Shown here piece after piece: positions 2,268 through 20,246 of a stretch of 44,012 bases of DNA. The notes beneath the pieces were generated by a model that ran no database searches, was not told the DNA's origin, and saw nothing but the letters and a program-made list of their open reading frames with translations. This DNA comes from a virus. The DNA is taken from IMG/VR virus record IMGVR_UViG_3300035670_000425, positions 1-44,012 of that record, one strand, 5' to 3'. How positions within the stretch are numbered: the stretch's first letter is position 1; each line of letters begins with the position of its first letter. The translations under genes and the position numbers were made by a program.

Positions 2268-2768
2268 TCAATCGTACTGCTTTTCGGTGTAAAACTTGAG
2301 ATTTACAATCGTGTTAAGCCTGTCATCAACCGGCTGACCAGACCGACAATCCCATGACCAGTTCATGTCAGTGTCAACTTCGCCCCAGTAATCGCTGGCA
2401 TCTTCAATAAATTCCAAGGCATGTTCAAAGTCAGAAACATCAAAATCCTCGAAATCCACTTCAAGCCCTGTCGGGTAGCCATGACTGACGAGCCAATAAG
2501 ACTTGATTTCGTTCTGCTCCATCCACTCCAGCAAGTCACACTGGCTTGAGACCACCTCAGTGATCTCAAGACTACCACTATCAAGATCGGCTTGATATCC
2601 GCTCAGGTCAGCACCTGCTGCTGCCTGATTATCCCAGTCTCTCAGATCACCGATCGACTTGAGTGCTGGATCTGCTGGATCATAAGCCCATCGGCTGGCG
2701 ATCTTATCGCCAACCAGCAGCAGAAGGTCTGTTGAGTTATTCGACTTGGCAATTGCTAACTGATGCAT
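2268..2768 (-). CDS. Acidic hypothetical protein (166 aa)
   Basis: Unrecognised soluble protein with a strongly acidic, aromatic-rich second half (EVDFEDFDVSDFEHALEFIE, then DYWGEVDTDMNWSWD). The net negative charge resembles phage DNA-mimic or inhibitor proteins, but no family match is claimed. Start ATG at 2768 follows AGGAGC (minus strand AGGATAGGAGCAAGAATT) at suitable spacing. It is the first gene behind the promoter at 2847-2875, whose -35 is embedded in the TTGACATGTCAA palindrome, so it belongs to the same regulon as the early and replication operons. It is followed closely by the 73-residue gene. Confidence 0.7.
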   Translation of the reverse strand: MHQLAIAKSNNSTDLLLLVGDKIASRWAYDPADPALKSIGDLRDWDNQAAAGADLSGYQADLDSGSLEITEVVSSQCDLLEWMEQNEIKSYWLVSHGYPTGLEVDFEDFDVSDFEHALEFIEDASDYWGEVDTDMNWSWDCRSGQPVDDRLNTIVNLKFYTEKQYD

Positions 2769-2846: not shown

Positions 2847-2877
2847 ACTATATATAATCTGTGTTGACATGTCAACA
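2847..2877 (-). promoter_or_regulatory. Minus-strand promoter with operator palindrome TGTTGACATGTCAACA
   Basis: The perfect 16-bp palindrome TGTTGACATGTCAACA occupies 2862-2877. On the minus strand its TTGACA (2875-2870) is a consensus -35, followed after 17 bp by TATAGT (2852-2847). It reads into the 2268-2768 gene. The same palindrome core recurs at 3416, 10739 and 14245. Confidence 0.75.
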
Positions 2878-2883
2878 ACTTTA

Positions 2884-3156
2884 CTAATTATTTAATTTTA
2901 TTTTTTTAGCCGACCTGCCTGAAACCACATCTACGTCAGGCCCGCTGGCCTGACTCCGATTCTCAGGAACCATCGACAGGATGTCTTCCACGACAGGATG
3001 TCCTTCAATGAGTATCCCTATCTTTTCGAGATCCCATACACCTAAAAATACCACTGTATTGACGATGTGCCTTCGGCACGAGTCGTGACTCTTCGCATTA
3101 TGTTTATCTTGAATTTTGACTTTAGAACATTCCATATATGTTACGACTTTCAACAT
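2884..3156 (-). CDS. Doubtful small ORF (90 aa) in the 2.9-3.5 kb control region
   Basis: An open frame from ATG at 3156 with a weak GAGAAG ribosome site. The product has scattered His/Cys/Lys early and a hydrophobic middle (VVFLGVWDLEKIGILI), and I do not recognise it. It sits between two copies of the operator palindrome (2862 and 3416), where a phage regulator would often be encoded, but I see no helix-turn-helix. Its stop is immediately next to the minus promoter at 2877. It could be a genuine small regulator or chance. Confidence 0.35.
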   Translation of the reverse strand: MLKVVTYMECSKVKIQDKHNAKSHDSCRRHIVNTVVFLGVWDLEKIGILIEGHPVVEDILSMVPENRSQASGPDVDVVSGRSAKKIKLNN

Positions 3157-3415
3157 TTCATAACTTCTCAGTCAATTTGTAATCTGGACTATTCTTAATT
3201 TCTCTTCTATCTATCTCTTGATTTAATAAAAATTTTGTTGCAAACAGGAAATTCATAATTAGTAGGTTTGCAAACCATGACGCTTACCCTATATGGAGAC
3301 ACCAAAACAGACAACATGACATGTATAAGCATGCAACTTTTTGTCAAAAACAAGCATAATCCACATCTTTAACCGACAACCAGACCATAATCCAAACTTT
3401 CCCATCAAATCAACA
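3157..3415. other. AT-rich control region with palindrome GGTTTGCAAACC
   Basis: About 345 bp without a credible gene separates the doubtful minus ORF from the plus operon starting at 3503. It contains the perfect 12-bp palindrome GGTTTGCAAACC (3265-3276), with a second TTGCAAAC at 3239 in direct orientation, and then the promoter at 3416. The palindrome and half-site look like a protein-binding site distinct from the TTGACATGTCAA operator. Confidence 0.5.
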
Positions 3416-3444
3416 TTGACATGTCAACATTAAGATGATAAATT
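3416..3444 (+). promoter_or_regulatory. Early promoter with operator TTGACATGTCAA
   Basis: TTGACATGTCAA is at 3416-3427. Its first half is a consensus -35, followed after 17 bp by TAAATT (3439-3444). The start of the first gene of the early operon is at 3503. The -35, spacing and -10 are the same as in the replication promoter at 14245. Confidence 0.75.
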
Positions 3445-3502
3445 CCTGTCGTTGTGAAACCGTGACACCACCTTTCAAGAAATGTAAAAGGAAAGTTTAC
3501 CA

Positions 3503-4300
3503 GTGAGCTATCAACCTCGACCCATCACATATAACACCAACCTTTCCGACAAACTGGAAACGCTCAAGAATGAGTGCCAAGCAATTGGCCCAGATTGGGA
3601 GTTCGACAAAACAGATCCTGAGACAGGCATCCATTGCTTCGCAATTGGCTACGGTATCGCCATAGCAGACTGGAGGACCATTTGGAGAAAAGTGGGATGG
3701 AAGGCTGTTAAAGACCACTACCCTTTATGCATATCAAAATCAAAAGTTGACCACACGACAAAGGATTACATCAACAAAAACATTCAGAACCTGTCAAGGT
3801 TCCACAAAAGCATGGTGAAAACAGCGGAATTGATTGCTGACATGACACATGAGTCTATTCACGCTGAGTCTGAACAGAAGAAAGCCCAACAGGAGCTTCG
3901 CAAAGCAGACAAAGAGGAAATCGAACGCCTAAAACTCGAACCTACTCCTGATGTTATCACCATTTCCGTTAGAAAGTTCCTTCAGGATAACCATTTGCAA
4001 TATCACAGGAAGATGTATCGGGATACCACAAGGCGATGCGGAGGAGGCGTCATATACGCCAACATCTTTCTCCCTCATTTTTACGGACACAGGATATTCG
4101 TGTTCTTAAGAGAACTTACTGACAAAGAAAAGTGGATGATCGAAAAGGGGAAACAAAAGAACCCTCGCATTATATCAGTTGTCATCCCAATCACTCTTTA
4201 CGACTCTGCATCCCTTAAACAAATCGCAGTCCTCGTTAAAGAAGAAATTACAAAGTTTGAGCCGGCAGTAAATTCCAAGCCAACACAGCAAGTTTCTTAG
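3503..4300 (+). CDS. First gene of early operon, hypothetical (265 aa)
   Basis: Unrecognised protein. The N-terminal 80 residues contain aromatic motifs (GPDWEFDKTD, ADWRTIWRKVGWKAV). The middle is a charged helical, probably coiled-coil stretch rich in E, K and Q (residues about 105-145, HAESEQKKAQQELRKADKEE). The C-terminal 110 residues are basic with a mixed alpha/beta pattern. The start is GTG at 3503, preceded by AAAAGGAAA; no nearer ATG fits a ribosome site. It is the largest and first product of the operon behind the operator-controlled promoter, so it would be made early or on derepression. No catalytic motif is visible. Confidence 0.75.
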   Translation: MSYQPRPITYNTNLSDKLETLKNECQAIGPDWEFDKTDPETGIHCFAIGYGIAIADWRTIWRKVGWKAVKDHYPLCISKSKVDHTTKDYINKNIQNLSRFHKSMVKTAELIADMTHESIHAESEQKKAQQELRKADKEEIERLKLEPTPDVITISVRKFLQDNHLQYHRKMYRDTTRRCGGGVIYANIFLPHFYGHRIFVFLRELTDKEKWMIEKGKQKNPRIISVVIPITLYDSASLKQIAVLVKEEITKFEPAVNSKPTQQVS

Positions 4301-4322
4301 AAACCCCACAGGAGACCAACTC

Positions 4323-4577
4323 ATGACTCAGCATGAAGCCGAAACAGCCAAAGCTATCCTCGACTCATTCGACATCCAATCCTCAGTCCACTGCTGCATC
4401 ACGGGTGAAGACTGGTATATCCATGTCAATGACAAACTCAAAGACAAAACAGTCCGCTTCGATATCTACGACTTCTGGACAGTCAGACAATCCCTCATCG
4501 AAGCTATGCCAGAAAAGATCCAAGCCAAACGTCCTCGACTGTCCATCATGAGACTCATCAAACCATCAACCAACTGA
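4323..4577 (+). CDS. Early hypothetical protein (84 aa)
   Basis: Unrecognised small protein. ATG at 4323 follows CAGGAG with correct spacing. The sequence (SSVHCCITGEDWYIHVNDKL, then YDFWTVRQSLIEAM) suggests a small alpha/beta fold with a basic C-terminal tail. It lies 22 bp after the 265-residue gene and 10 bp before the next one, in the same transcript. Paired cysteines at about residues 21-22 are its only notable residues. Confidence 0.7.
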   Translation: MTQHEAETAKAILDSFDIQSSVHCCITGEDWYIHVNDKLKDKTVRFDIYDFWTVRQSLIEAMPEKIQAKRPRLSIMRLIKPSTN

Positions 4578-4587
4578 GGACATATTC

Positions 4588-4884
4588 ATGATCACACCGA
4601 AAGAAAGATTCGAGCGAGACAAAACCATCCGCAAACACCAACTGGACAAACTCGACATCATCCAGTCCGACAGAAAGATCAAAGAGTTCCAAGAACTCGG
4701 CTGGTCAATCCATGTCGAAACCATTGTTCCATTCAAATCCTTTAGAGCCGATCTCAAAACACCCTCAGGTGTCTTTCATTCATCCACCTCATCAACCCGA
4801 ACCGATGCCATCGAATTGGCATTCCAGACCATCCTTACAACATTACAACAACAAGCCGATATGGCAACAGGTAAGAAATCATGA
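4588..4884 (+). CDS. Early hypothetical protein (98 aa)
   Basis: Unrecognised. ATG at 4588 follows GAGGACATATTC. The N-terminal 35 residues form a charged helix (PKERFERDKTIRKHQLDKLD). A beta-type section follows (WSIHVETIVPFKSFRADL), then a serine/threonine stretch and a C-terminal helix. Its stop overlaps the start of the next gene by ATGA, which indicates translational coupling. No domain or catalytic residues can be proposed. Confidence 0.7.
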   Translation: MITPKERFERDKTIRKHQLDKLDIIQSDRKIKEFQELGWSIHVETIVPFKSFRADLKTPSGVFHSSTSSTRTDAIELAFQTILTTLQQQADMATGKKS

Positions 4885-5339
4885 AAACAAGGGGTTCAAC
4901 CAGCCAAAAAACAAAACGACAACCTTCCAAGGTCAAATCTATCGACCAAACCTCGTCGCATGACAAAACAGGGGGTTCTTCCAGTCGTCCAGACGCTCAA
5001 ATCGGCTCCAACGGAGTTTCAATGAATGCCTTCGGCCAAATAACGGAAGAACAAAGGCAGGCAGGTCTCGAAAAAGCCCGTCAATCCCGTGAGAACCGCA
5101 AATCATGGCTAAGATCCTGCACAAAGACATACGAAGTCCTCGAAGCCAGGCATCCCAACCATGCCAACAAGATCAAACAATTAGAATCAGGTAGCCTAAA
5201 AGCTGCTATCAAACTCAAGTGCCTCGGTTGCACTCTGGGTCACATGGAAGAAATTAAGAACTGCTCAGTTGTCTCCTGTCCATTGTGGCCTGTCAGGCAC
5301 TGGAAGAACACCGAAGGGGTTACAGATGACCAATCTTAA
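4881..5339 (+). CDS. Early protein with four-cysteine C-terminal zinc-type motif (152 aa)
   Basis: The first 70 residues are low-complexity and rich in S, K, T and N (probably disordered). A basic helical part (EEQRQAGLEKARQSRENRKS) follows. The C-terminus carries CLGC-x10-C-x4-C followed by PLWPVR (cysteines near residues 114, 117, 128 and 133). A C-x2-C...CPLWPYR motif is frequent in small phage proteins and is likely zinc-binding; its role is unknown to me. It starts at an ATGA overlap with the preceding gene. Its 3' end overlaps the next start at 5326. Confidence 0.7.
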   Translation: MKTRGSTSQKTKRQPSKVKSIDQTSSHDKTGGSSSRPDAQIGSNGVSMNAFGQITEEQRQAGLEKARQSRENRKSWLRSCTKTYEVLEARHPNHANKIKQLESGSLKAAIKLKCLGCTLGHMEEIKNCSVVSCPLWPVRHWKNTEGVTDDQS

Positions 5340-5499
5340 GGACAACGTCAAAACATTCTTGGAATCAGCAAGTCTCAGCACCAAATACATGGTCGATTCT
5401 GCTGTGTCCAATGATTCCAAGGCTGTGAGAGCCAATGCCAGACAGATCATTCTAATGGCCGAGAAATTGATTCAGCAGATAGAGGGGGAGAGGGGATGA
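5326..5499 (+). CDS. Small early protein (57 aa)
   Basis: The frame is open from 5269, but ATG at 5326 has an excellent AAGGGG site five bases upstream, so I choose it. That gives a 57-residue helical protein with regular heptad-like hydrophobics (VKTFLESASLSTKYMVDSAV, then IILMAEKLIQQIEGERG). Its stop overlaps the next start by ATGA. It overlaps the tail of the zinc-motif gene by 14 bp. Function unknown. Confidence 0.6.
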   Translation: MTNLKDNVKTFLESASLSTKYMVDSAVSNDSKAVRANARQIILMAEKLIQQIEGERG

Positions 5500-5738
5500 A
5501 GATCTATAAAGTCACTGCGGTAAGAACTGCTGAGTACTACATTGCAGTCAAGGACAACCAGGTCTCGCTCGTTATAGCAGAGAACAACTTAGAAGATGCG
5601 TTTGATTTAGCTCAGACACGAAGCATAACAATGCGGGAAATGGATGTTTTTGATAAAAGGCTCGACGGGGTTGATATTTACGGACTTGACTTCGATGAGC
5701 TTGATGAAATCCGTGAACAGATGAGGGGTGAGAAATGA
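5496..5738 (+). CDS. Small acidic early protein (80 aa)
   Basis: ATG at 5496 lies directly behind a purine-rich GAGGGGGAGAGGGG site and overlaps the previous stop. The N-terminus has alternating hydrophobics (KIYKVTAVRTAEYYIAV) typical of a beta hairpin. The C-terminal half is acidic (VDIYGLDFDELDEIREQM). I do not recognise it. Its small, acidic character and early position would fit an inhibitor of a host protein, which is conjecture. Confidence 0.65.
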   Translation: MKIYKVTAVRTAEYYIAVKDNQVSLVIAENNLEDAFDLAQTRSITMREMDVFDKRLDGVDIYGLDFDELDEIREQMRGEK

Positions 5739-6157
5739 GTGATGAACAACCAACTTATGACGGAGTGGAATTGGTCGAAGCAATCTTTGCTGTTGAGCAA
5801 GCCATTGAGGCATTGGCTCCATTTGACATCAGTACAAGCCATTTACAACAAACCTTAGTGCAACTTAGATCAATCCAAGACCCTTGGCACGAAGCCAAGC
5901 AAGCAATGCAGCAGCATTTAGAGCTACAAGCGTCGAACAGAGTCAAGGGCGTTGCCCAGTACGCACAGCATCTTGAGCAGGAACTGGCTAACCGCAAACC
6001 ATTATGGATTGTCCTCCCTGCTGACGACAACCTGCATTTCCGGCCTAACGGTGCGATCGATCAATATGTGTTCGTGCAAAAAAAAGCCGCAGAACATCAT
6101 CGACAAAATGCGGCAAGTCCTGACGAGTATCGAGTTCAAGAGGTTTGGGGTAAATGA
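5735..6157 (+). CDS. Early hypothetical protein (140 aa)
   Basis: Starts at ATG 5735 in an ATGA overlap, with GAGGGG upstream. The sequence is helix-rich with many Q, E and A residues (VELVEAIFAVEQAIEAL, then HEAKQAMQQHLELQ), so a coiled-coil or helical bundle over residues 10-95 is likely. A short beta-like stretch follows (PLWIVLPADDNLHF). It is not a family I recognise. The next gene begins two bases after its stop. Confidence 0.65.
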   Translation: MSDEQPTYDGVELVEAIFAVEQAIEALAPFDISTSHLQQTLVQLRSIQDPWHEAKQAMQQHLELQASNRVKGVAQYAQHLEQELANRKPLWIVLPADDNLHFRPNGAIDQYVFVQKKAAEHHRQNAASPDEYRVQEVWGK

Positions 6158-6158
6158 A

Positions 6159-6461
6159 ATGAACATCGAAATCACAGAATCCAAGCTGGCTCAGTTCCAC
6201 AAACTTTTGAAATATTCGGGACTAGAAGCCTCTGTTTCTCCAAAGGATATTAAGTATGTTGCTGAATGCCTTGTTAGGTCCAATATCGTCAACCATTACT
6301 CTGATGACTTAACAGCAGCGTATATGGCAGGCGTAGAGAACGGGAAGCATCGGTCAGAAGTTGAGATTAAGAGATTGCATCAGGAAAATCAGTCTCTGAA
6401 GAATGTTGTGAAGGAACTTATAGGCAATACTCTTAAGTGTGACGAGGATGTGGAATCATGA
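6159..6461 (+). CDS. Early hypothetical protein (100 aa)
   Basis: I start this gene at ATG 6159, two bases after the preceding stop. The frame is open further upstream, but that part only shadows the 5735-6157 gene. The product has an N-terminal section (ESKLAQFHKLLKYSGLEA) and a C-terminal coiled coil (EVEIKRLHQENQSLKNVVKE) with leucine at heptad positions. It ends in an ATGA overlap with the following gene. Function unknown; the coiled coil suggests oligomerisation. Confidence 0.65.
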   Translation: MNIEITESKLAQFHKLLKYSGLEASVSPKDIKYVAECLVRSNIVNHYSDDLTAAYMAGVENGKHRSEVEIKRLHQENQSLKNVVKELIGNTLKCDEDVES

Positions 6462-6697
6462 GTACACTCGAAGAGCAAAACAACACCCTCCGAAAAATCA
6501 TCGGCGAAATCTGGTGGATGGCTCAGAGGTATGCCAATGGCCGAAGCACTTATGCACCCTCTATGTACAACCAGATGATAGACCTCGCCATCAAAAACGG
6601 TGTTAAACTTGAAGCAGACGAGATTTACGCTGAAGACGGCGATTTTGGTAAATGGATTCCAGAGCGTCAGTGTTTTGAAAAGGAAAGGATAAGGTAA
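6458..6697 (+). CDS. Early hypothetical protein (79 aa)
   Basis: ATG at 6458 overlaps the previous stop and follows GAGGATGTGGAATC. The N-terminal EEQNNTLRKIIGEIWWMAQR is an amphipathic helix with a WW pair. A YANGRSTYAPSMYNQ segment follows, then an acidic C-terminus. A similar layout is seen in small phage proteins of unknown role. It is the last gene of the tightly coupled chain; the next gene has its own upstream gap. Confidence 0.65.
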   Translation: MSTLEEQNNTLRKIIGEIWWMAQRYANGRSTYAPSMYNQMIDLAIKNGVKLEADEIYAEDGDFGKWIPERQCFEKERIR

Positions 6698-6715
6698 AAA
6701 TTTCACAAACACCGC

Positions 6716-6744
6716 TTGCGCATTCGCAAGAGACATACTATAGT
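6716..6744 (+). promoter_or_regulatory. Possible promoter for the 6788 gene with short hairpin
   Basis: A CTTGCG-CATT-CGCAAG inverted repeat (6715-6730) lies in the 90-bp gap before the 6788 gene. TTGCGC (6716-6721) and TATAGT (6739-6744) are 17 bp apart and could form a promoter. The -35 is imperfect and lies inside the hairpin. Confidence 0.35.
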
Positions 6745-6787
6745 TTCTCTGTTGTCAGTTGATTAACTTCTAGGAAAGGAAACGATA

Positions 6788-7030
6788 ATGGCCGAGTTTC
6801 AGTTGTTTGATGACACAGAGCAAGGGTACAAAGATTTTGTTCAACTGGTTCACGACAACTTTTTTGAAAAGCGTGACGTTGACAGGGCTATCAAAAGAGC
6901 GATAGAAAATGTCAGATTGTACCTCAAAGACATGGGTCCAAACGATGTTTTCTTTGATGATGCAGAGCATCAGTCCATAGTCTTTTGTAAGTACCTTGCC
7001 AATGAACTCGCTCGAACTTGGAATGTCTAG
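6788..7030 (+). CDS. Early hypothetical protein (80 aa)
   Basis: ATG at 6788 is preceded by AGGAAAGGAAACGATA, a strong ribosome site. The product is acidic and helical (TEQGYKDFVQLVHDNFFE, then RDVDRAIKRAIENVRLYLKD), ending in a helix LANELARTWNV. Unrecognised. It is separated from the preceding operon by 90 bp that may hold its own promoter. It is followed within 34 bp by a strong intrinsic terminator, so it is the last plus-strand gene before the convergent terminase operon. Confidence 0.65.
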   Translation: MAEFQLFDDTEQGYKDFVQLVHDNFFEKRDVDRAIKRAIENVRLYLKDMGPNDVFFDDAEHQSIVFCKYLANELARTWNV

Positions 7031-7063
7031 GATCTGTAAGAAAAACAACCCAATATTCCTTAC

Positions 7064-7093
7064 GCCCCGAAGTCTCTTCGGGGCTATTTTATT
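7064..7093 (+). terminator. Intrinsic terminator of the early operon
   Basis: A perfect 9-bp stem GCCCCGAAG-TCT-CTTCGGGGC (7064-7084) is followed by TATTTTATT. It lies between the convergent early operon and the HNH gene whose stop is at 7092, and probably acts for both directions. Confidence 0.9.
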
Positions 7094-7538
7094 AATGCCC
7101 ATGAATTCTTTTGTGGCATCGTCGGCACACTGCTTTCAAGTCTTCAGGAGTCTCTTTCTGTCGTATAGACTCACCCTTCTCGTCAAAGTATCTCAGGTGG
7201 TGCATGTCTAGTGAACTATCAATGTGGCTTACGCCACACACTTCGCACTTGTAACCAGCCCTCTGCAATACTGCTTTTCTTACACTGGGATAGATGAATT
7301 TTTCGTCGTACCCGAAGTGCTTGGCTTTCTCGAAAGCCCAATAGTCATTGATCTCCGACTCCCTCTTCGCCTTGGCCTCTTTATGCTCTCTTAACACCTG
7401 TTCGGCTTCTGCGAGGATATCTTCTAAGATACACCCCTCTCTCTCAGCCTGTTCTCTTGTCGGTGGTTTTACATTTGGGTCAAAGAGTTGCCAGTAAGGA
7501 TATTGTTTTACGCTAAAAAAGGCGTCGAACTTACTCAT
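7092..7538 (-). CDS. HNH endonuclease family protein
   Basis: The 148-residue product has a helical, charged N-terminal half and a C-terminal HNH nuclease core. Visible elements are CEVCG (C98, C101), SLDMHHLRY (H113, H114) and CRRCHKRIHGH (C138, C141, H142, H146). This is the zinc-stabilised HNH fold that nicks or cuts DNA. HNH proteins next to terminases in HK97-type phages assist packaging (established for HK97 gp74); others are free-standing homing nucleases. Here it is last in the terminase-methyltransferase operon and starts in an overlap with the preceding stop. The packaging role is an inference from context. Confidence 0.85.
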   Translation of the reverse strand: MSKFDAFFSVKQYPYWQLFDPNVKPPTREQAEREGCILEDILAEAEQVLREHKEAKAKRESEINDYWAFEKAKHFGYDEKFIYPSVRKAVLQRAGYKCEVCGVSHIDSSLDMHHLRYFDEKGESIRQKETPEDLKAVCRRCHKRIHGH

Positions 7539-7890
7539 CGCTCACAACTCCATCACCTACACCGTAAGGCATATAATCCCTTTGTGGAAGAATTGGTCGA
7601 TGCTGACCAGCATCGACAAGCTCGTCAAAAGTAGGGTCGTAAACAGTATCGTTACCGTCTATCCCGTGATGCTCATTACGTCTTTTGATTTCGGCCAAGA
7701 ATACTCGTTCCGCAGGCTTCCCTAAGACTTTTCGAGCATCCGTAATTTTGCAGATCTCGCAGATTGTCGCCGTGTTCCCAGCAGTTGATTCTGTTGAGCC
7801 ATCAATCACAATAGTAAATAGCGGTGGCTCATCGTCACCGCAGTAAAGGCACTGATTTTTGTCACGACTGAGGATCTTTGACCATCTCAT
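7531..7890 (-). CDS. HNH-like zinc protein, catalytic histidine not visible
   Basis: 119 residues. The start (RWSKILSRDKNQCLYCG) and the later NTATICEICKITDARKVLG match the frame of small HNH proteins: C-x2-C, then N-x2-T-x-C-x2-C-x6-K. The DH-type catalytic position between the knuckles reads IVIDGSTEST, so the first histidine appears to be missing. The rest is a proline- and acid-rich tail. It could be an inactive HNH fold used for binding, or a pseudoenzyme. It overlaps the methyltransferase stop by ATGA and the next HNH gene by 8 bp, so all three are coupled. Confidence 0.55.
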   Translation of the reverse strand: MRWSKILSRDKNQCLYCGDDEPPLFTIVIDGSTESTAGNTATICEICKITDARKVLGKPAERVFLAEIKRRNEHHGIDGNDTVYDPTFDELVDAGQHRPILPQRDYMPYGVGDGVVSDE

Positions 7891-8579
7891 AATGCCGAAT
7901 CCTTAAAAACAAGGCATCGAGTCTCTTTTAACCTCTTAATAGCCTTCTGGCATGTTTCAGGATCGGATTCGCATGCAACTGTTTTTATCCCCAATTCCCT
8001 TGCTGCCACCGCAATCGAGCATCCACCAGCAAAGGGATCTGCAATTATATTAGGCTTGAGCCAATACAAAAGATCCTTAATCAACTCAACTGGCTTCCCC
8101 CAGCAACCCATGATTCCAGAAACATTTCTGGGGTATTCAAGCACACTGTTTAACGCTTTACGTTCTTTAGGTTTATAAATCCTTTTTGCCATTCTGTCTC
8201 GACCAACGCAGCCAAAACCTTTGCTTCTCGGAGTCCTATCCTTATTCAGTTCTCCCACATAGACCGAGTCGGTTTTCCCGTAAACCAGAATAGATTCATG
8301 GGTGATTCTTGGCAGGTTGTGGCTAACCCATCGACCGTCTTTGAAGTGCCAGATCAATTCTGATCTTGGCCTCCCATAAGCAGACTCAACAAAAGACCTG
8401 TTCTGCCAGTTTGTAAAACAAACCTTGTTCTCAAAATCCCATGGCTCATGATATTTCCAGATATCAAAAGGCGGGTCCAAGAAAAGCACATCCGCTGAAC
8501 TGAATACATCCTTGATTTCCAGCGAATCGCAATTGTAAAGCGTTACATACTCATCCTTGTAGCAGGGTTCATGATCCAT
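7887..8579 (-). CDS. Beta-class DNA methyltransferase (N6-adenine or N4-cytosine)
   Basis: Motif IV DPPF lies near the N-terminus (about residues 35-38) and the AdoMet motif I DPFAGGCS near the C-terminus (about 181-188), followed by the acidic ESD of motif II. This order (IV before I) defines the beta class. The enzyme would methylate an exocyclic amino group in a short DNA site, protecting phage DNA from restriction or marking it for regulation or packaging. The frame is open to 8618, but ATG at 8579 has a GAGGGCG site and is preferred. No restriction partner is visible. It lies 64 bp downstream of TerL in the same transcript. Confidence 0.85.
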   Translation of the reverse strand: MDHEPCYKDEYVTLYNCDSLEIKDVFSSADVLFLDPPFDIWKYHEPWDFENKVCFTNWQNRSFVESAYGRPRSELIWHFKDGRWVSHNLPRITHESILVYGKTDSVYVGELNKDRTPRSKGFGCVGRDRMAKRIYKPKERKALNSVLEYPRNVSGIMGCWGKPVELIKDLLYWLKPNIIADPFAGGCSIAVAARELGIKTVACESDPETCQKAIKRLKETRCLVFKDSAL

Positions 8580-8643
8580 TTCGCCCTCAATCTGCAGCCC
8601 GATACATTCTGTGTACATGGCAACAGATCATAACAAAGAGATT

Positions 8644-9864
8644 TTAAACCGCAATCACCTTTCGCATATTCCCGCACAAAAACGCATAGCCTAAAGAGAT
8701 TGAGTCCACGCAGTCATCATGGTCATCCGCTGTTGTGCCAGTAAAACTATCAATCTCATCGAAACAAGCTGATGTCCAATTGCCCTGCACGTAAAACACT
8801 TTTCCTGCTGCCGCAGCTTTAGCAAATGGCATCGCTCTGGTGATCTTGGATGAACCATGGCTTGACCAACTGACTCTGCGGCCCTGTAAAACATTAAGCT
8901 GATGGCTCAAGAGCCTCTTTCCAGCAGATCCTGGCTCAACTTCAATGCAGATCGTAACAGTCGTCCCATCCTCATCAGATGTCTTGACAATCTGTGGATC
9001 AACCTGATCCGCACTGTACTGCTGTCTTATCTGGTCGATCAGAATGACTTTGTCTGTGCCTGGGATCAGTCCCATGAGAGTTCCTACAGTGTAGTCTGAT
9101 CTCCGGCCAATTGTTGCTGCACAGTCCCACGCTCTGCACAGGATGAGTTTCTCAGGTATTGATCCTTCCCATGGTTTGATCCACGAGGACTTCATGAGTG
9201 TGCCTTCGGTATCGACAAACAGCCCTTCAACTTCTTGATTGTAAAACGCACCGTCATACGACGCCTTCAAAGACTGCACGAAAAAATCAGGATTGAACTG
9301 GTTGGAATATGTCGGCGCATGAATCATCTCGGCAACACCTGCCTGAATAACCCTGTAAGTCCAGTGGTTTTTGCCTCTCGGGGTGAATGTCATCCACATC
9401 TTTCCGGGCTGTTTACGGAGACGACCCAGAAGAACCTTGTATACATCTTCATCCGAGTAACTGGCCTCATCCATGTAAGCTGCACCAGCATTGGTTCCCC
9501 GCAGTCTGTCAGGCTTATCCGCAGATCTCCAGAGGATTGTCCGATCACCTTTGACACGTGTCTCCATATCTGTCCGGTTGTGACTGATAATCAGCCCAGA
9601 GCTTGAATATAGCTCTTCAAACATCCTATGGGTCGAGTCTTTGAGGATCGTGAATGTCGGTGCAACTACAATTGTAAGAGTGCCTTTCGGCTGATTCATT
9701 ACCTCAACAATGCCTGCACGGGTCTTACCTGCTCCAACACCTCCGACAAAAGCTCTCTGTTTGGCTGGCGAAGTCCAGAATTTTAGCTGTTGAGGTGTGA
9801 ATGTCTCAATGTTATGAACCTGTGTCCGACCCTTCTTTGTTCGCATCTGGTGGAAGATCGACAT
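8644..9864 (-). CDS. Terminase large subunit
   Basis: ATPase and nuclease motor that packages DNA into proheads. From the chosen start, Walker A GGVGAGKT is at about residues 41-48, Walker B AAYMDEAS at about 128-135, and the ATPase coupling motif near TFTPRG. The nuclease domain shows AWDCAA (Asp about 247), a further acidic cluster, and DDHDDCVDSISLG near the end. The frame is open to 10023, but upstream codons overlap TerS. ATG at 9864 has AAGGATGG just upstream and gives 406 residues, normal for this family; ATG 9873 is an alternative. It overlaps TerS by about 50 bp. Confidence 0.93.
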   Translation of the reverse strand: MSIFHQMRTKKGRTQVHNIETFTPQQLKFWTSPAKQRAFVGGVGAGKTRAGIVEVMNQPKGTLTIVVAPTFTILKDSTHRMFEELYSSSGLIISHNRTDMETRVKGDRTILWRSADKPDRLRGTNAGAAYMDEASYSDEDVYKVLLGRLRKQPGKMWMTFTPRGKNHWTYRVIQAGVAEMIHAPTYSNQFNPDFFVQSLKASYDGAFYNQEVEGLFVDTEGTLMKSSWIKPWEGSIPEKLILCRAWDCAATIGRRSDYTVGTLMGLIPGTDKVILIDQIRQQYSADQVDPQIVKTSDEDGTTVTICIEVEPGSAGKRLLSHQLNVLQGRRVSWSSHGSSKITRAMPFAKAAAAGKVFYVQGNWTSACFDEIDSFTGTTADDHDDCVDSISLGYAFLCGNMRKVIAV

Positions 9865-10549
9865 TTGATCCATCCTTGCCAGCTTCAGGTCTTCCCTCTC
9901 CAGATCCAGATTGCTCGAAGTACTTTCCGACACGTTCATGGTCCTTATACTGAGCCTGCATTTCCTGAGTGATCTCAGCGATAGTCTTGCCAGCAATCCT
10001 TTGCTCAACCGAGTCATTTGCAACCATGCGATCCCAATACTGGAGCTTCACTTCAGGTTTCGCAAATTCCATCCCTCGGGTTCTTTCCAGCCACCATGCA
10101 GCAGCAACCCAAACACCCTTTTGTGCCGCATCAAGCACAGCTTTCACGCACAAGTCCCTTGGTGTATTTTGGGCGTTATTGATTTCCCTGCGTTTCTCGG
10201 GGTTCTGCTTCAGGTACTCGTAAAAAATCTTTCGATTAAAGCCTAATGCCTTGCAGATTGCTGTAATTTCGTAGCCGAGATGGCAAGCCTCGATCACTTG
10301 TTTCCAATAGTTCTCAATCTTGATCTTGCCACGATACCTGCGGTTTTGGGCGAAGGCAGGGACAGATGTGATCCGCTCAAGGTTCTCTTCAAAGTTTTCG
10401 GACAAACCATAGCGTTCTTCAGGCGACAATCGCCCATGGGTTGACTCGGTTTTGACCTGTTTTGCAATGATCTTCTTCTTCCTGACTCGCTTAGGCTTTC
10501 CTTGCTCAGGCTTATCAGGTGATGGGGTTGAGTTGTCTTGCCCACTCAC
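9812..10549 (-). CDS. Terminase small subunit
   Basis: The product has a basic N-terminal tail (RVRKKKIIAKQVK), then a helix-turn-helix (YEITAICKALGFNRKIFYEYLK). A segment typical of small terminases follows (VLDAAQKGVWVAAAWWLERT), and the C-terminus is acidic and disordered. It recognises the packaging site and recruits TerL. The frame extends to 10642, but that part overlaps the preceding gene. GTG at 10549 has AAAGGGG six bases upstream and gives 245 residues, my preferred start. It lies directly before TerL with an overlapping end. Confidence 0.8.
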   Translation of the reverse strand: MSGQDNSTPSPDKPEQGKPKRVRKKKIIAKQVKTESTHGRLSPEERYGLSENFEENLERITSVPAFAQNRRYRGKIKIENYWKQVIEACHLGYEITAICKALGFNRKIFYEYLKQNPEKRREINNAQNTPRDLCVKAVLDAAQKGVWVAAAWWLERTRGMEFAKPEVKLQYWDRMVANDSVEQRIAGKTIAEITQEMQAQYKDHERVGKYFEQSGSGEGRPEAGKDGSNVDLPPDANKEGSDTGS

Positions 10550-10721
10550 GCATGGCCCCTTTGTAAATGCTGGTTTCAGCCGACTCGCTGTAGGCTTCGG
10601 CCATGATTTCTGGGATCTGACCCATGTCAACAGCGACATCAATAGCGATGTTTACCTCGACCGGATCATGGTCACTGAGGTTTAATTTATTCTGTTTTCT
10701 CGACTTACGCTTATTCGCCAT
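10515..10721 (-). CDS. Small basic/acidic protein heading the terminase operon, probably leaderless (68 aa)
   Basis: From ATG at 10721 the product starts with a basic MANKRKSRKQNK stretch. It continues with an acidic section (LSDHDPVEVNIAIDVAVDM) and a C-terminal helix ending in REWARQL. I do not recognise it; it might be a DNA-binding cofactor of TerS. ATG lies only six bases after a perfect TATAAT, so the mRNA would begin at or near the A of the start codon. The frame continues upstream through the promoter to 10745, which I reject as a start. It overlaps TerS by 35 bp. Confidence 0.6.
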   Translation of the reverse strand: MANKRKSRKQNKLNLSDHDPVEVNIAIDVAVDMGQIPEIMAEAYSESAETSIYKGAMREWARQLNPIT

Positions 10722-10727
10722 AAAACC

Positions 10728-10767
10728 ATTATAGCATGTTGACATGTCAGCATAAAGTTGGTAATCT
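10728..10767. promoter_or_regulatory. Divergent promoters sharing one operator (terminase / exonuclease)
   Basis: TTGACATGTCAG (10739-10750, one mismatch from the palindrome) serves both directions. Plus: TTGACA (10739-10744), 17 bp, TAATCT (10762-10767), toward the exonuclease gene. Minus: TATAAT (10733-10728) with a weak -35, so the operator lies between -35 and -10. A bound regulator would affect both operons at once. Confidence 0.75.
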
Positions 10768-10772
10768 CTGTC

Positions 10773-10850
10773 TGTCCGCTGGGAATCCGGTTATGGCAAG
10801 CTAAAGTCTACAACTATACGATTCGTATAGATCATATCCCCCAGCGGACA
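10773..10850 (+). promoter_or_regulatory. Structured 5' leader of the exonuclease mRNA
   Basis: TGTCCGCTGGG (10773-10783) is exactly complementary to CCCAGCGGACA (10840-10850). Between them CTATACGA-T-TCGTATAG (10814-10830) makes an inner 8-bp hairpin. TCTACAACT occurs as a direct repeat at 10807 and 10851. The predicted transcription start from TAATCT is about 10774, so the first stem begins with the first base of the mRNA. The ribosome site AAGGA follows about 15 bases after the structure. Confidence 0.65.
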
Positions 10851-10876
10851 TCTACAACTCTGCCAAGGATGGACTC

Positions 10877-11752
10877 ATGGTGGGGGATTGTTCGTTGGCA
10901 GAATTAGAACGAAATTTGTACTTAGGTGCTTCGGAAGTCGCTTGTGTCATGGGATGCTCACCGTTTGGTGATGCTCTCAAGGTCTACATGACCAAGGTTT
11001 ACCCACAGAGGGAAAGCGTTCCTACCGAAAGAATGCAAGTCGGATTAGACACAGAGGATTTCGTTTTAACCCAGTTTGAAAAGAAATTGGGTGTTAAAGT
11101 CACCAATAAACAGTATCGGATGACACACTGGCAGGAAGTCTGGGCTGGAGCAACTCTCGATGGAATGGCAGTAATTGACGGCAAAACTGCCGTTGTTGAA
11201 GCGAAAACGATATCGACTCCGCTCTATCTTGAAGCCCCTCTCTATTACGTCATGCAGGTGCTTTGGCAGCAGTGGATCAGCGGGGCCGAGAAAGGTTATC
11301 TGGCAGTCTGGTCAACAAAGGACATGCTCTTCCGGTATTACCCGATTGATGTTGCTGACCATCGTGAGCTTCTGGAAGAGTGTATCGCTAAGTGCAAATC
11401 ATTCTGGTTTAACCATGTTGTTCCCCAGAATCCTCCTGAAAAGCGAGTCGTAGAAAGATCCGAACAGGATTTGCCTGATGAACTTCTTGACCAGTACTGC
11501 TCAATTCAAGAACAGATCAAAGATCTCGATGCACAAAAGAAAGAACTGCACCAAAGGATCATTGAATCCGTTGGATCGCCCTCAGAGCTAAGAGCGAAGA
11601 ACAGTCGATTCCAGATGGATCTGACGACCCAGGTGTCAAGAAGGCTCAATACAAAGAGACTTGAGCATGATAACCCAGAACTAACTCAACAGTATTACGA
11701 ACAAAACAGTTCTCAGAGGCTGGTCATTAAAAGGCTTGGCGTCAAATTTTGA
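10877..11752 (+). CDS. YqaJ-like / lambda exonuclease-fold recombination nuclease
   Basis: 291 residues. The N-terminus YLGASEVACVMGCSPFGDAL matches the GGSDIAaImG-sP motif of YqaJ viral recombinases. A GATLDGMA motif and VVEAKTIST carry the D-x(n)-E-x-K catalytic centre of the PD-(D/E)XK exonuclease fold, followed by YYVMQVLWQQWI. It should chew 5' ends of double-stranded DNA to create 3' tails for phage recombination. A C-terminal coiled-coil (about 205-235) is present. ATG at 10877 follows AAGGATGGACTC. It stands alone behind its own promoter and ends 11 bp inside the convergent gene at 11742. No annealing partner is adjacent; the SSB-like protein at 15882 is the nearest candidate. Confidence 0.85.
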   Translation: MVGDCSLAELERNLYLGASEVACVMGCSPFGDALKVYMTKVYPQRESVPTERMQVGLDTEDFVLTQFEKKLGVKVTNKQYRMTHWQEVWAGATLDGMAVIDGKTAVVEAKTISTPLYLEAPLYYVMQVLWQQWISGAEKGYLAVWSTKDMLFRYYPIDVADHRELLEECIAKCKSFWFNHVVPQNPPEKRVVERSEQDLPDELLDQYCSIQEQIKDLDAQKKELHQRIIESVGSPSELRAKNSRFQMDLTTQVSRRLNTKRLEHDNPELTQQYYEQNSSQRLVIKRLGVKF

Positions 11753-12146
11753 ATGCCTTACGGAATAGGGCAGCACCAGACGGTCTTTGATAACCTGATT
11801 CGGTTTTGGGAGTGGTAACAACCTTTGCTTCGGTCTTATAGTCTTGGTTCAGAATCTCTGGCCCAGAATAAACAATCGAAGTAAAGCTAAAACTGGTCGA
11901 AGCGTTGTGTTCAGTAGTCGGTGTGGCGGCAGTCGGAATGGCCCGTGAGGTGGGTACGGGTTTGCTGGACACAATTGCTTCGATCTGGTTTTCCTCGGCC
12001 TCACCATAAACTTTTTTACAGGCTTCAACAATCAGATCGTTTGTGGTTCCACCGTGTTCGGTGGAGTAGATCTTAAGAGCCGCCCAGACGGACTCCGGCA
12101 AAACAAGGTTGTATCTTCTTAGCGGAATTCGTTTGGGCTTCTTCAT
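11742..12146 (-). CDS. Ribbon-helix-helix-like DNA-binding protein with long tail (134 aa)
   Basis: The N-terminal 45 residues (KRIPLRRYNLVLPESVW, then AALKIYSTEHGGTTNDLIVE) fit a ribbon-helix-helix fold: a beta strand with alternating polar residues, then two helices. Such proteins act as dimeric repressors or antitoxins. The remaining 85 residues are rich in T, S, P and A and look disordered, ending in ALFRKAFKI. ATG at 12146 follows GGAGACACAAC. It lies near the integrase and could be one of the phage regulators. No toxin partner is seen. Fold assignment is by pattern only. Confidence 0.6.
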   Translation of the reverse strand: MKKPKRIPLRRYNLVLPESVWAALKIYSTEHGGTTNDLIVEACKKVYGEAEENQIEAIVSSKPVPTSRAIPTAATPTTEHNASTSFSFTSIVYSGPEILNQDYKTEAKVVTTPKTESGYQRPSGAALFRKAFKI

Positions 12147-12181
12147 AGTTGTGTCTCCGGCCTTGTATCTCCAGCCAAAAT

Positions 12182-12508
12182 TTACACTAATAAATTCAAC
12201 AAATCAACAAGAGCATCCCACGCATCATAAGGCACATAAGGGTCGCTGCACTCAGAACCGTCAAAATGCAAAAGTCTGCCGTCTAAAGTTGGAGTCTGAT
12301 AAGTGATTTCATCGTCTGGCTTGAAGCTGTTAGACTTGCCGTTTTCAAGATAGTCCTTGAGCCACAACCTTGGAAGAGACGCATTATCAAAACCATCAAC
12401 AATAATTTTGGCGAAATGTGGGCAGAAATCGCCTTCATAATCCCAAGAACCAATTACCCCAGCACCGTTATTCACCGAAAACACTGAACCGTTTCTTACT
12501 ACCGTCAT
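12182..12508 (-). CDS. Hypothetical protein with its own palindrome promoter (108 aa)
   Basis: Unrecognised soluble protein rich in D, G, Y and L (GSVFSVNNGAGVIGSWDYEG, then DYLENGKSNSFKPDDE). It ends in a hydrophobic helix ALVDLLNLLV. ATG at 12508 has AAAGGAG eight bases upstream. The promoter at 12545-12573 would transcribe it independently of the integrase. It sits in the region between integrase and recombination nuclease where lysogeny accessory genes are common. Expression from the prophage is a possibility, but nothing in the sequence proves it. Confidence 0.65.
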   Translation of the reverse strand: MTVVRNGSVFSVNNGAGVIGSWDYEGDFCPHFAKIIVDGFDNASLPRLWLKDYLENGKSNSFKPDDEITYQTPTLDGRLLHFDGSECSDPYVPYDAWDALVDLLNLLV

Positions 12509-12544
12509 GTCAAAACTCCTTTAGTAATAGGTCACAACGGAACA

Positions 12545-12573
12545 AGAATAATGCACGTGCATACACTAGTCAA
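12545..12573 (-). promoter_or_regulatory. Promoter with palindrome ATGCACGTGCAT in the spacer
   Basis: On the minus strand TTGACT (12573-12568) and TATTCT (12550-12545) are 17 bp apart. The perfect 12-bp palindrome ATGCACGTGCAT (12551-12562) fills most of the spacer. It reads into the 12182-12508 gene. Confidence 0.55.
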
Positions 12574-12593
12574 TCCCGTTGTGGTGAAAATTC

Positions 12594-13607
12594 TTACAGT
12601 CCTTTTGCCTTCTGTGCTGCTGAGAGCATAAACTCTTTGTTCTGCTGGATTTGAGCATAAACACGATTAACCATCGTGAGGTCAGTATGACCCATGAGTT
12701 TGCTGAGAGTGATCGGATCAACACCGTTTTGAAGTGCCTCAGTGCAGTAGCCTTTGCGGAACGCTCCAAGGTGAGTCTTGATCCCTGTTTTTGTTGCCAT
12801 CCTCTTTAAAGCACAGATCAGGCTGTTTTTGCAGTACGGATCGCCTTTCGTGTTAAGAAAGATTGGCCCTGTCGGGTTTTCTTCACACAATTGTTCAACA
12901 ATTTCAACAGCCCTGTCTGTACCGAGGTAAATGGTTCTTGGTTGTCTCTTGCCTTTGGCCTCCTCACGTGGAAAAACAATGCAGCGGAAGTCTTTGTTGT
13001 AATGCCTTGCTTCAATACGGGTCAGCTCCTGTGGTCTCATTCCTGTGTCCCAAGCCAATTGAAGAAGCATCTTGAAATTTGACTGAGGAACCAGTTCTTC
13101 GATCTTCGCCATCTGTTCGGCAGTGATGTAATCAGTCCTGGCTTCAGTTGGTGGCTTAACCAGATGCTGAATAGGATCTTTCTGGATGTGGCCCTCGATT
13201 GCAGCCCAGCGGTAAAGCCTCTTGCAAGCTCTCGCAAAGTTGTGTTTCGTGTTGAGTTTCCAGTCTTTATGAGTGGAAATAATGCGATTAATATCACTTA
13301 CTCTGACAAGTTCTGCCGCCGTAAACTCATCCAGCCCAAGGACTAAGTGACCCAAAAACAGGTTGTACCACTGCCATGTGTTCTCAGAACTGGTCCGAGA
13401 AAGGTCATCCATGAACAACTCAACGAGCTTCTTAACAGTAAGAATCTCTTTGGATGTTTGGTTGGCAGGAAGTCCTTCAGACATAATCTCATGCCATTTG
13501 CGGAACGCTTCTGCCTTGTCTCCTGCCAGTTTTACTTGGGTTTTTCCAACCTGTAAGTACCAAGCATTTCTGGCTTTACGATAAAACGGCTGATTGATCC
13601 TATCCAT
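12594..13607 (-). CDS. int: Tyrosine-family site-specific integrase
   Basis: 337 residues with a SAM-like core-binding domain (about 55-150) and a C-terminal catalytic domain. Catalytic residues seen are R191 in TGMRPQEL, H279 and R283 in THLGAFRKG, H307 in LMGHTDL and the nucleophile Y317 in RVYAQI. The N-terminal 30 residues (FYRKARNAWYLQVGKTQVK) resemble an arm-binding beta segment. It would catalyse recombination between attP and a host tRNA-Val gene. ATG at 13607. attP lies about 100 bp upstream of the gene, an arrangement typical of temperate phages. Confidence 0.95.
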   Translation of the reverse strand: MDRINQPFYRKARNAWYLQVGKTQVKLAGDKAEAFRKWHEIMSEGLPANQTSKEILTVKKLVELFMDDLSRTSSENTWQWYNLFLGHLVLGLDEFTAAELVRVSDINRIISTHKDWKLNTKHNFARACKRLYRWAAIEGHIQKDPIQHLVKPPTEARTDYITAEQMAKIEELVPQSNFKMLLQLAWDTGMRPQELTRIEARHYNKDFRCIVFPREEAKGKRQPRTIYLGTDRAVEIVEQLCEENPTGPIFLNTKGDPYCKNSLICALKRMATKTGIKTHLGAFRKGYCTEALQNGVDPITLSKLMGHTDLTMVNRVYAQIQQNKEFMLSAAQKAKGL

Positions 13608-13707
13608 GGGAAAACCTCAATAATTCTGCCAGTAGCAGTCTTAGTGAGTCTCTCTGCCAATTTTCCTGTTTTTCATAACTTATTACAGGATATAATCTTA
13701 CAAGGAA

Positions 13708-13750
13708 ATGGGCGGTGAGGGATTCGAACCCCCGACATCCTGCTTGTAAG
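13708..13750 (-). other. attP: attP core: 3' half of tRNA-Val (UAC)
   Basis: Read on the minus strand, 13750 to 13708 gives the anticodon loop CTTACAA, the 3' anticodon strand GCAGG, the variable part ATGTC, the T arm GGGGGTTCGAATCCCTC and acceptor ACCGCCC of a tRNA-Val. The 5' strand expected for the anticodon stem is absent (TGCAC instead of CCTGC), so only the 3' half is carried. This is the usual design of attP sites that restore the tRNA after integration. Confidence 0.85.
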
Positions 13751-13768
13751 GTGCAGATAAACTCAACG

Positions 13769-13821
13769 GACTACAGGGTTTAGGAAATCCGGCAATCATT
13801 TTTGACTGCCGGCGACTACAG
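13769..13821. promoter_or_regulatory. Putative integrase arm sites and hairpin next to attP
   Basis: GACTACAG occurs twice in direct orientation (13769-13776 and 13814-13821), 45 bp apart, on the side of attP away from int. CCGGCA...TGCCGG (13789-13812) forms a hairpin between them, which may instead end the 13869-14117 transcript. The 118-bp stretch up to 13868 holds no gene. Confidence 0.4.
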
Positions 13822-13868
13822 TGATATTGATATCGACACGATTCGGATCTGTCAATACTTTTCAGAAA

Positions 13869-14117
13869 TTAATCTGAAGATTTTTCCAGCTCCTCTTCGA
13901 GGAGTGCTAACGCTGGCTTGATGAACGCCAGTTGAGATTTGTAATCGAGATCCAGATAAGCTGACAGGATTGCACTTACCAGACATTCTGCCGAGACAGG
14001 GCGACCTTCAAAGCTGCAACCCGAGTCAGTCAACTTTTGACAATGGTCTTTAATTCCACGATGGATTCGTGGCAATGTTCGGGCGTTGATACGTGGACCT
14101 AGTGATAAACTTGCCAT
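13869..14117 (-). CDS. Small protein beside attP, possible regulator (82 aa)
   Basis: The frame is open to 14159, but ATG at 14117 has a near-perfect GGAGAGGAACAA ribosome site. The product is basic at the N-terminus (GPRINARTLPRIHRGIKD) and continues with two cysteines. A helical C-terminal half follows (AECLVSAILSAYLDLD, ending in LLEEELEKSS). It could be a small DNA-binding protein, an excisionase-like factor or a repressor, judged by its place between attP and the replication promoter and its own promoter with a degenerate operator. No family is recognised. Confidence 0.6.
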   Translation of the reverse strand: MASLSLGPRINARTLPRIHRGIKDHCQKLTDSGCSFEGRPVSAECLVSAILSAYLDLDYKSQLAFIKPALALLEEELEKSSD

Positions 14118-14165
14118 TTGTTCCTCTCCATGGGATTGAAAAATCTGCTTTTTCAGCACGTCCTT

Positions 14166-14196
14166 AGTATCGGTAAAATATTGACATAGATCAATA
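14166..14196 (-). promoter_or_regulatory. Promoter with degenerate inverted repeat for the 14117 gene
   Basis: On the minus strand TTGATC (14194-14189) and GATACT (14171-14166) are 17 bp apart. The inverted repeat TATTGA-N6-TCAATA (14179-14196) covers the -35 and resembles a relaxed version of the TTGACATGTCAA operator. Confidence 0.5.
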
Positions 14197-14242
14197 CTGT
14201 TTTTGTGTATAGTCTAGATCTTTTTATTTTTTTTGAAGTTAA

Positions 14243-14273
14243 TGTTGACATGTCAACACATCCGACATAAATT
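14243..14273 (+). promoter_or_regulatory. Replication-operon promoter with operator TGTTGACATGTCAACA
   Basis: The perfect palindrome lies at 14243-14258. TTGACA (14245-14250), 17 bp, TAAATT (14268-14273) form the promoter of the 14330-21580 operon. Sequence and geometry are the same as at 3416. Confidence 0.8.
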
Positions 14274-14329
14274 GGGTCAGTCCAGTTCGGACAAGGCGTA
14301 AGACTTTTTAGATCACGGAAAGGGTATTG

Positions 14330-14827
14330 ATGGATAACCATAATCCTGCGGTTGTAACTGTTCGAGCAGGGATTGCAAAGCGGGTTGGAAGACCTAATTT
14401 CAGTTCTTACGAGGCGAATTTGCAACTGGAAATGACCTTGGATTTGGGTGCGGTTACTGACGACAAGTTTCCTGAGTTTCTCGCTGAATTATACGGCAAG
14501 ATTCAAACGGAAGTCGATGCTCAGATCGCCACGGAAATCTACAGACAGGACAACACTAAAAACGATTTGCCGATGGCAAAGACGGTTGCTCCTGCTGTTG
14601 TAACCCCTTATATGCCAACCCAGAAGTTTGGTGATTTCCTTAGAGAAAAGTCTTCTGAACTTTCTGTTGAGCCAGAAGCCCTTGTAAGGCACTGGTACAA
14701 ATCTCACGTTGGTGGCCCTCTGACGCTGTTCCCAGAGCAGGGCAAGATGCTCAATGAGCTTTGGAACGCCGGTGTAATCAAGACTGAAGACTTAACAAGA
14801 TCAGTGGAAAAATGTCCCGCTTACTAA
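14330..14827 (+). CDS. First gene of replication operon, hypothetical (165 aa)
   Basis: ATG at 14330 follows GGAAAGGG at good spacing. The N-terminal half (KRVGRPNFSSYEANLQLEMT, then a long acidic helix) resembles a small phage and cyanobacterial protein type with a YxS-x-E-x-x-L strand followed by helices. I cannot name a family. The C-terminal half has a helical segment (FGDFLREKSSELSVEPEALV) that may be a small DNA-binding or adaptor fold. It stands directly behind the operator-controlled promoter and immediately before csrA, so it is among the first replication-module products. Confidence 0.7.
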   Translation: MDNHNPAVVTVRAGIAKRVGRPNFSSYEANLQLEMTLDLGAVTDDKFPEFLAELYGKIQTEVDAQIATEIYRQDNTKNDLPMAKTVAPAVVTPYMPTQKFGDFLREKSSELSVEPEALVRHWYKSHVGGPLTLFPEQGKMLNELWNAGVIKTEDLTRSVEKCPAY

Positions 14828-14846
14828 GACGACAGGAGGTCGAACA

Positions 14847-15044
14847 ATGCTGGTTGTTACACGCAAAATCGGTGAGTCGTTAGTGCTACAGGACAAGTCA
14901 ACAGGTGCAGAGATTGCAAGAGTCTTTATTGCTTCTGTTGACAGGGGACAGGTCAAGGTTGGAGTCAAAGCTCCGACCAGTCTCGCTATCTGGAGGACCG
15001 AATTGATCGAAACACCAGATGGCACAAAACGAACTCACAGTTGA
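14847..15044 (+). CDS. csrA: CsrA/RsmA-family RNA-binding regulator
   Basis: 65 residues: MLVVTRKIGESLVL matches the canonical CsrA start (MLILTRRVGE), and VDRGQVKVGVKAP matches the conserved VRIGI-AP core. The last strand carries IWRTEL in place of the usual VHREEI. CsrA dimers bind GGA motifs in mRNA leaders, often over the ribosome site, and repress or stabilise the target. ATG at 14847 has a strong AGGAGG site. Its end overlaps the PrimPol start. A phage copy may reprogram host carbon and motility control or regulate phage mRNAs; that role is inferred. Confidence 0.93.
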   Translation: MLVVTRKIGESLVLQDKSTGAEIARVFIASVDRGQVKVGVKAPTSLAIWRTELIETPDGTKRTHS

Positions 15045-15879: not shown

Positions 15880-15881
15880 AA

Positions 15882-16556: not shown

Positions 16557-16623
16557 CGATTCGCTCCTTGCCCACGGATGGGCCTTTTATTTCATTAAAG
16601 AACACACAGAAGGATACCCGCCG

Positions 16624-20244: not shown

Positions 20245-20246
20245 CA

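Follow-up and report, generated by a model that had tools for sequence, protein, structure and literature searches.

Do the four occurrences of one short palindrome in a phage genome mark the operators of a single regulator and, if so, which protein would that regulator be? The question is raised by the IMG/VR virus record IMGVR_UViG_3300035670_000425, positions 1-44,012 of which make up the 44,012-bp stretch analysed here (the window; all coordinates refer to it). A sequence-only reading of this DNA had proposed that the palindrome TTGACATGTCAA is built into the -35 boxes of four promoter regions, and that one regulator acting there gates nearly all non-structural genes. Our analysis makes it very likely that the four sites share a regulator, and this regulator is probably encoded by the phage. 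Its identification with the product of gene 11742-12146 (hereafter 11742), a candidate ribbon-helix-helix (RHH) protein, is tentative.

Results

Scanning the whole window for the motif returned three exact copies of TTGACATGTCAA (2864-2875, 3416-3427 and 14245-14256) and a fourth copy at 10739-10750 with one mismatch (TTGACATGTCAG), that is, at the four places originally proposed. At 2862-2877 and 14243-14258 the palindrome grows to 16 bp (TGTTGACATGTCAACA). Base composition predicts 0.003 exact copies, and 199 of 200 first-order Markov replicas of the window had no exact copy while the remaining one had a single copy. The genome-wide scan suggested by the sequence-only reading thus places the four sites far above chance, and the outcome that it had named as fatal to the idea, an equal density of the motif in DNA of like composition, is not what the replicas show. 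TTGACATGTCAA is the sole 12-bp palindrome that recurs in the window. When up to three mismatches were allowed, the count (36 matches versus 31 expected) fell to chance level and gave no sign of a larger hidden set of degenerate palindromes; the regulon therefore consists of these four sites. One possible reading of the 16-mer is TGTTGACA followed by TGTCAACA, i.e., two abutting TGTNNACA boxes. The motif was absent from the literature as searched for it.

Any copy of the palindrome brings a -35 box with it, TTGACA being the consensus, and the independent evidence comes from the -10 boxes. Three of the seven TTGACA arms of the palindromes are followed by a good -10 with a spacer of exactly 17 bp, as against none of the 55 other TTGACA in the window (Fisher P = 0.0009), and all four sites fall within predicted promoter regions (Table 1). 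It is because the sites are real, lie in promoter regions and show a non-random -10 spacing that we favour a shared regulator. The earlier claim that the palindrome always provides the -35 holds for one direction at each site; toward the terminase genes, however, the 10739 site lies in the spacer before a TATAAT. This site is composite, combining a weak plus-strand exonuclease promoter with a minus-strand TATAAT that has the operator occupying its spacer, and a repressor bound to it would stop transcription in both directions. A transcript directed by the same TATAAT would begin with the ATG of 10515-10721 and thus be leaderless (10721-10733).

The genes facing operator A are 2268-2768 and those to its left; operator C faces the exonuclease gene (plus strand) and the small and large terminase genes (minus strand). 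A shared operator at the early operon, the exonuclease gene, the small-terminase side, the replication operon and the leftward gene is well supported and, given these promoters, it is fair to say that one regulator would gate nearly all non-structural genes. The early operon, the exonuclease/terminase pair and the replication operon had been correctly listed as controlled genes, but no 2.7-kb-long gene exists, the leftward gene being 2268-2768 (minus strand).

Half of the palindrome is also frequent on its own. The octamer TGTTGACA is the most over-represented in the window (20 copies versus 4.5 under an order-3 model), and 14 lone copies, from 10632 to 41142, lie in coding sequence; this is an approximately four-fold excess (3.6 +/- 1.7 expected) that none of 1000 synonymous shuffles reached. 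A cruder set of open reading frames (ORFs) gave 11 copies versus 3.3 for the window, with no clear excess in the related contigs described below. The coding copies have no consistent orientation (eight sense, six antisense). A general TGTNNACA box was discarded, because the excess over expectation was clear for TGTTGACA only and smaller for TGTACACA. The coding copies may serve the repressor as weak sites, comparable to the stoperators of mycobacteriophage L5, or may have another role.

To follow the sites across related genomes we used more than a dozen syntenic IMG/VR contigs, a near-identical record (3300034073_004892, 99.995%) not being counted as independent; a large-terminase search of a genome collection yielded no relative. 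Identities to the relatives were about 77% for the large terminase, 58-60% for the primase and 52-55% for the integrase. The product of a second small gene, 13869-14117 (hereafter 13869), is 56-61% identical in all relatives covering the region and that of 11742 about 33-40%, and both genes are syntenic with the integrase, exonuclease, terminase and replication genes. These contigs carried no copy of TTGACATGTCAA, exact or with one mismatch, nor did any other perfect palindrome recur at their promoters. TTGACA is retained at the replication and exonuclease promoters of the relatives and leads there into a common asymmetric sequence (TGTTGACATGTTTTGCG and TGTTGACATATTCTGTG); in place of the palindrome they carry TTGACATGTTTTGCG. 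This element, TTGACAT-N-TTYTG, occurs in 2-6 copies per record versus 0.00-0.07 expected. The form (C/T)GTTGACAT-N-TTYTG recurs at several early-region places in the relatives (L006:17431, L006:18954, L014:11715 and L041:10776, among others). Hence, the two comparable promoters are conserved and the putative regulator site is changed at both, as would be expected if repressor and operators had diverged together.

Which protein could read the palindrome? Among 40 window proteins scanned, which cover almost all non-structural genes, none reached the Pfam cut-off for a helix-turn-helix (HTH) or S24 match, and accordingly no gene for an HTH or HTH plus S24 peptidase protein of the CI type was found beside the operators. 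This agrees with the earlier remark that no classical repressor gene is recognisable. The further suggestion of a new type of regulator is not borne out, the operator logic being ordinary for temperate phages; what would be out of the ordinary is a master repressor of the RHH class. Three small ORFs had been put forward. One of them, 2884-3156, had no relative and no PHROGs match; it is probably not a gene, and we dropped it as a regulator. The other two were kept, 11742 for an RHH domain predicted by profile and 13869 (as an ORF, 13869-14159) for its conservation and repressor-like position, although the latter has no recognisable fold.

The profile was built from six Arc/Mnt proteins of phage records and compared by hhalign with 66 window proteins. 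The 11742 product ranked first (P 9e-5; runner-up 0.0094), and none of 100 column shuffles of its family attained the family's score. The alignment runs without gaps across the DNA-reading strand, helix A, the turn and helix B, and seven of the eight family members weakly matched a PHROG Arc-like repressor (E 0.04). A low-confidence model places helices at residues 18-30 and 35-47. Beyond the predicted RHH domain, the protein has a long variable middle and a conserved C-terminal FRKAFKI. The 13869 product gave a weak signal with the same profile (P 0.013).

Table 1. Predicted operators, promoters, regulator candidates and gene groups of the window
Feature	Position	Strand	Remarks
Operator A (predicted)	2862..2877	.	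TGTTGACATGTCAACA, 16-bp perfect palindrome; its TTGACA on the minus strand serves as -35 box for leftward transcription
Operator B (predicted)	3414..3429	.	CATTGACATGTCAACA; perfect 12-bp core 3416-3427
Operator C (predicted)	10737..10752	.	TGTTGACATGTCAGCA; 12-bp core with one mismatch
Operator D (predicted)	14243..14258	.	TGTTGACATGTCAACA; divergent region between gene 13869 and replication operon
Leftward promoter	2847..2875	-	TTGACA-17-TATAGT, 11/12 match, best in first 20 kb; before gene 2268-2768
Early promoter	3416..3444	+	TTGACA-17-TAAATT with TGn; before operon starting at 3503
Exonuclease promoter	10739..10767	+	TTGACA-17-TAATCT with TGn; weak -10 (3/6); position matches the relatives' TTGACA-17-TACATT promoter
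Terminase-side -10	10728..10733	-	Perfect TATAAT; operator C occupies its 17-bp spacer, not the -35
Replication promoter	14245..14273	+	TTGACA-17-TAAATT
Best regulator candidate	11742..12146	-	Predicted Arc/Mnt-type RHH N-terminal domain; conserved C-terminal FRKAFKI
Second regulator candidate	13869..14117	-	Conserved 82-aa protein, divergent from replication operon; no recognisable fold
First gene of leftward unit under operator A	2268..2768	-	166 aa, no family
Early operon (operator B)	3503..7030	+	Small genes without significant family matches
Terminase small and large subunits	8644..10642	-	Small 9812-10642, weak Sf6-type (Pfam E 0.0028); large from 8644
YqaJ-type recombination exonuclease	10877..11752	+	Pfam E 9.6e-16
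Tyrosine integrase	12594..13607	-	Pfam E 7.5e-19; within leftward lysogeny-type gene group
attP-like core	13717..13750	-	Identical to 3' part of tRNA genes; anticodon TAC (Val) read from sequence
Replication operon (operator D)	14327..21580	+	14327, CsrA (14847), prim-pol (15019), helicase (16970), ThyX (19417), RuvC-like (21119)

Judged by its genes, the virus is a temperate tailed phage, because it carries a tyrosine integrase and a tRNA-like attP core; a major capsid protein gene was found along with the terminase, exonuclease and replication genes. The attP core had 10 matches to tRNA genes across several phyla and is not decisive for the host. The leftward group, in the order 13869, attP, integrase, 12182 and 11742, looks like a lysogeny unit. 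It does not have the palindrome as its own -35, but operator D nonetheless lies in the divergent region that it shares with the replication operon.

Other features were noted in passing. The csrA gene (14847-15044; Pfam E 3.7e-12) stands early in the replication operon, and one relative, L110, has CsrA too. A papain-family (C1) cysteine protease gene (34332-35153; Pfam E 3.1e-9) lies beside the structural genes. At the ends of the record (1-210 and 43595-44012) a 42-43 bp unit with the hairpin CAGGCCCGC-TCTG-GCGGGCCTG is present in about 15 copies. These probably form a single array, within which the contig of a circular or permuted genome was broken; the relative G004 likewise terminates in repeated GC hairpins.

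Discussion

We believe that the best explanation of these results as a whole is that the palindrome is the operator of one phage repressor, most likely the 11742 RHH protein, and on sequence grounds we would give this account about even chances. In the prophage, repressor dimers would lie over the -35 boxes of the A, B, C and D promoters and exclude RNA polymerase, acting by repression rather than activation, and loss of the repressor would induce the replication and early genes at the same time. The repressor would be the Arc/Mnt-type protein encoded at 11742-12146, in the same leftward group as the integrase, and two RHH dimers would occupy the two abutting boxes of each 16-bp site, an arrangement that the two-box geometry would suit. 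The most specific form of this proposal, an Arc-like RHH master repressor of lysogeny acting on tandem 8-bp boxes in four -35 regions and on lone boxes within genes, with a specificity switched with respect to the nearest relatives, is conceivable but rather doubtful.

Several observations weigh against a repressor encoded by 11742. Its predicted RHH domain had no significant match in Pfam, NCBIfam or PDB, and the AlphaFold models (pLDDT 42 for 11742 and 63 for 13869) were too poor for a fold search or confirmation. Poor models often result when a single chain of an intertwined dimer is modelled from a shallow alignment; the RHH call thus comes from sequence comparison. The gene is distal in its group, and since no palindrome accompanies it, autoregulation is not apparent; the long tail of its product would suit an antitoxin as well. 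The TGTTGACA half-sites in coding sequence lack a second half, even a hidden one. Moreover, it is 13869 that adjoins operator D, the classical position of a repressor gene, and the relatives share the half-site TGTTGACA at the same promoters (replication, exonuclease and 13869), so that a conserved regulator reading this half-site is possible. The predicted DNA-contacting strand offers a comparison between the two candidates: in 11742 it is RRYNLVLP in the window and RRASIVMP in the relatives, whereas the corresponding segment of 13869 is conserved (PRINAR and PRVNAR, respectively), which mildly favours 11742. Since the conservation of TGTTGACA in both groups argues in the opposite way, this comparison is not decisive.

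The alternative that survives best keeps the regulon and assigns it to the 82-aa product of 13869 (minus strand), which would be a divergent DNA-binding protein in a CI-like position. Operator D separates the gene from the replication operon, which is transcribed the opposite way, and the integrase is nearby; both the conservation of 13869 in the relatives and the retained half-sites would agree with such a role. We consider it unlikely, since the protein has no convincing family match, its model found no PDB match, and its similarity to Arc was equalled by two of 100 shuffles; besides, if its PRxNAR segment read DNA, the relatives should have retained the palindrome, which they lack. Somewhat less likely still is a host regulator, e.g., LexA, that would tie the phage to the DNA-damage signalling of its host, as in Bacillus phage GIL01, which uses host LexA (PMC4551915). 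The lack of a CI-type protein among those scanned would fit, and the LexA motifs named in PMC8565304 vary widely among phyla and include palindromes of this size; yet TTGACATGTCAA is unlike those named there, and the palindrome is missing from the syntenic relatives, whose hosts are probably related. We give a similarly low standing to the idea that 11742 is an antitoxin (an RHH domain with a disordered tail) unconnected with the palindrome and paired with 12182. The architecture of 11742 would suit this, and the small gene 12182 adjoins it and is conserved at about 31-35%, but the 12182 product had no significant match in Pfam or PHROGs (a defence library was not searched), and the antitoxin candidate comes second here, whereas an antitoxin gene usually comes first. 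That the sites are merely strong sigma-70 promoters, the palindrome being an accident of the consensus -35 or a regulator-free promoter element, is improbable: the relatives do keep TTGACA without the palindrome at the two compared promoters, but the right half TGTCAA, superfluous for sigma-70, is exact in three of the four sites, far beyond the number of exact copies expected, and two sites extend to 16 bp.

A phage repressor acting on the palindrome, most likely the 11742 product, would show how immunity is controlled in a group of uncultivated phages that has no close relatives among the cultured phages searched, and would put forward for testing a repressor that is not of the usual HTH type. 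With gene order and promoters the same and the operator different, the relatives provide a natural comparison for how the operator specificity of phages changes.

Among known elements, the extended start-associated sequences (ESAS) of Cluster K phages are 17-bp inverted repeats with GGGATAGGAG at translation starts of high-GC phages (PMC3203893). The identical 16-mer TGTTGACATGTCAACA occurs in several 60-kb actinophage-like (cluster-K-like) records, often repeated and upstream of genes; there it forms part of the 17-bp inverted repeats, and it precedes GGGATAGGAG start-associated sequences in L019, L020, L026, L030, L031 and L037. Beside the four window sites there is no GGGATAGGAG, nor the combination of 17-bp inverted repeats and GGGATAGGAGCCC that characterizes ESAS. 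As these phages look unrelated to that of the window apart from a weak helicase match, their sole link, the shared TGTTGACATGTCAACA is probably a convergence.

The arrangement in the window is that expected of a dispersed-operator regulon, the same operator being present at several lytic promoters and overlapping promoter elements. In phage P22, Arc and Mnt act in the immI region on a secondary switch. The 11742 product resembles them without gaps over the RHH domain; unlike in P22, the sites are at four dispersed promoters and have other operator sequences. The F55 protein of SSV1 is an RHH lysogeny regulator of an archaeal virus that binds short tandem boxes ATAGATAG (PMC5569661), and here, too, a candidate RHH protein would maintain lysogeny through short tandem boxes at several early promoters; however, F55 belongs to an archaeal virus with archaeal promoters, has different boxes and binds its own promoter (PMC5569661), and the likeness is not one of demonstrated homology. 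In mycobacteriophage L5 and other Cluster A phages, a repressor with an HTH recognizes 13-bp asymmetric sites, 20-30 per genome and most of them outside promoters (PMC6550527). The window would share with them a single repressor with sites scattered over the genome, some of them in early promoters, and in Cluster A the sites diverge together with the repressor between related phages (PMC6550527). It differs in that its near-perfect palindromes number four and are confined to promoters, that bare half-sites lie within genes, and that no HTH repressor was detected among the proteins scanned. Systems of this kind are therefore known, and an RHH master repressor with this operator in a bacterial phage would be a new variant among them.

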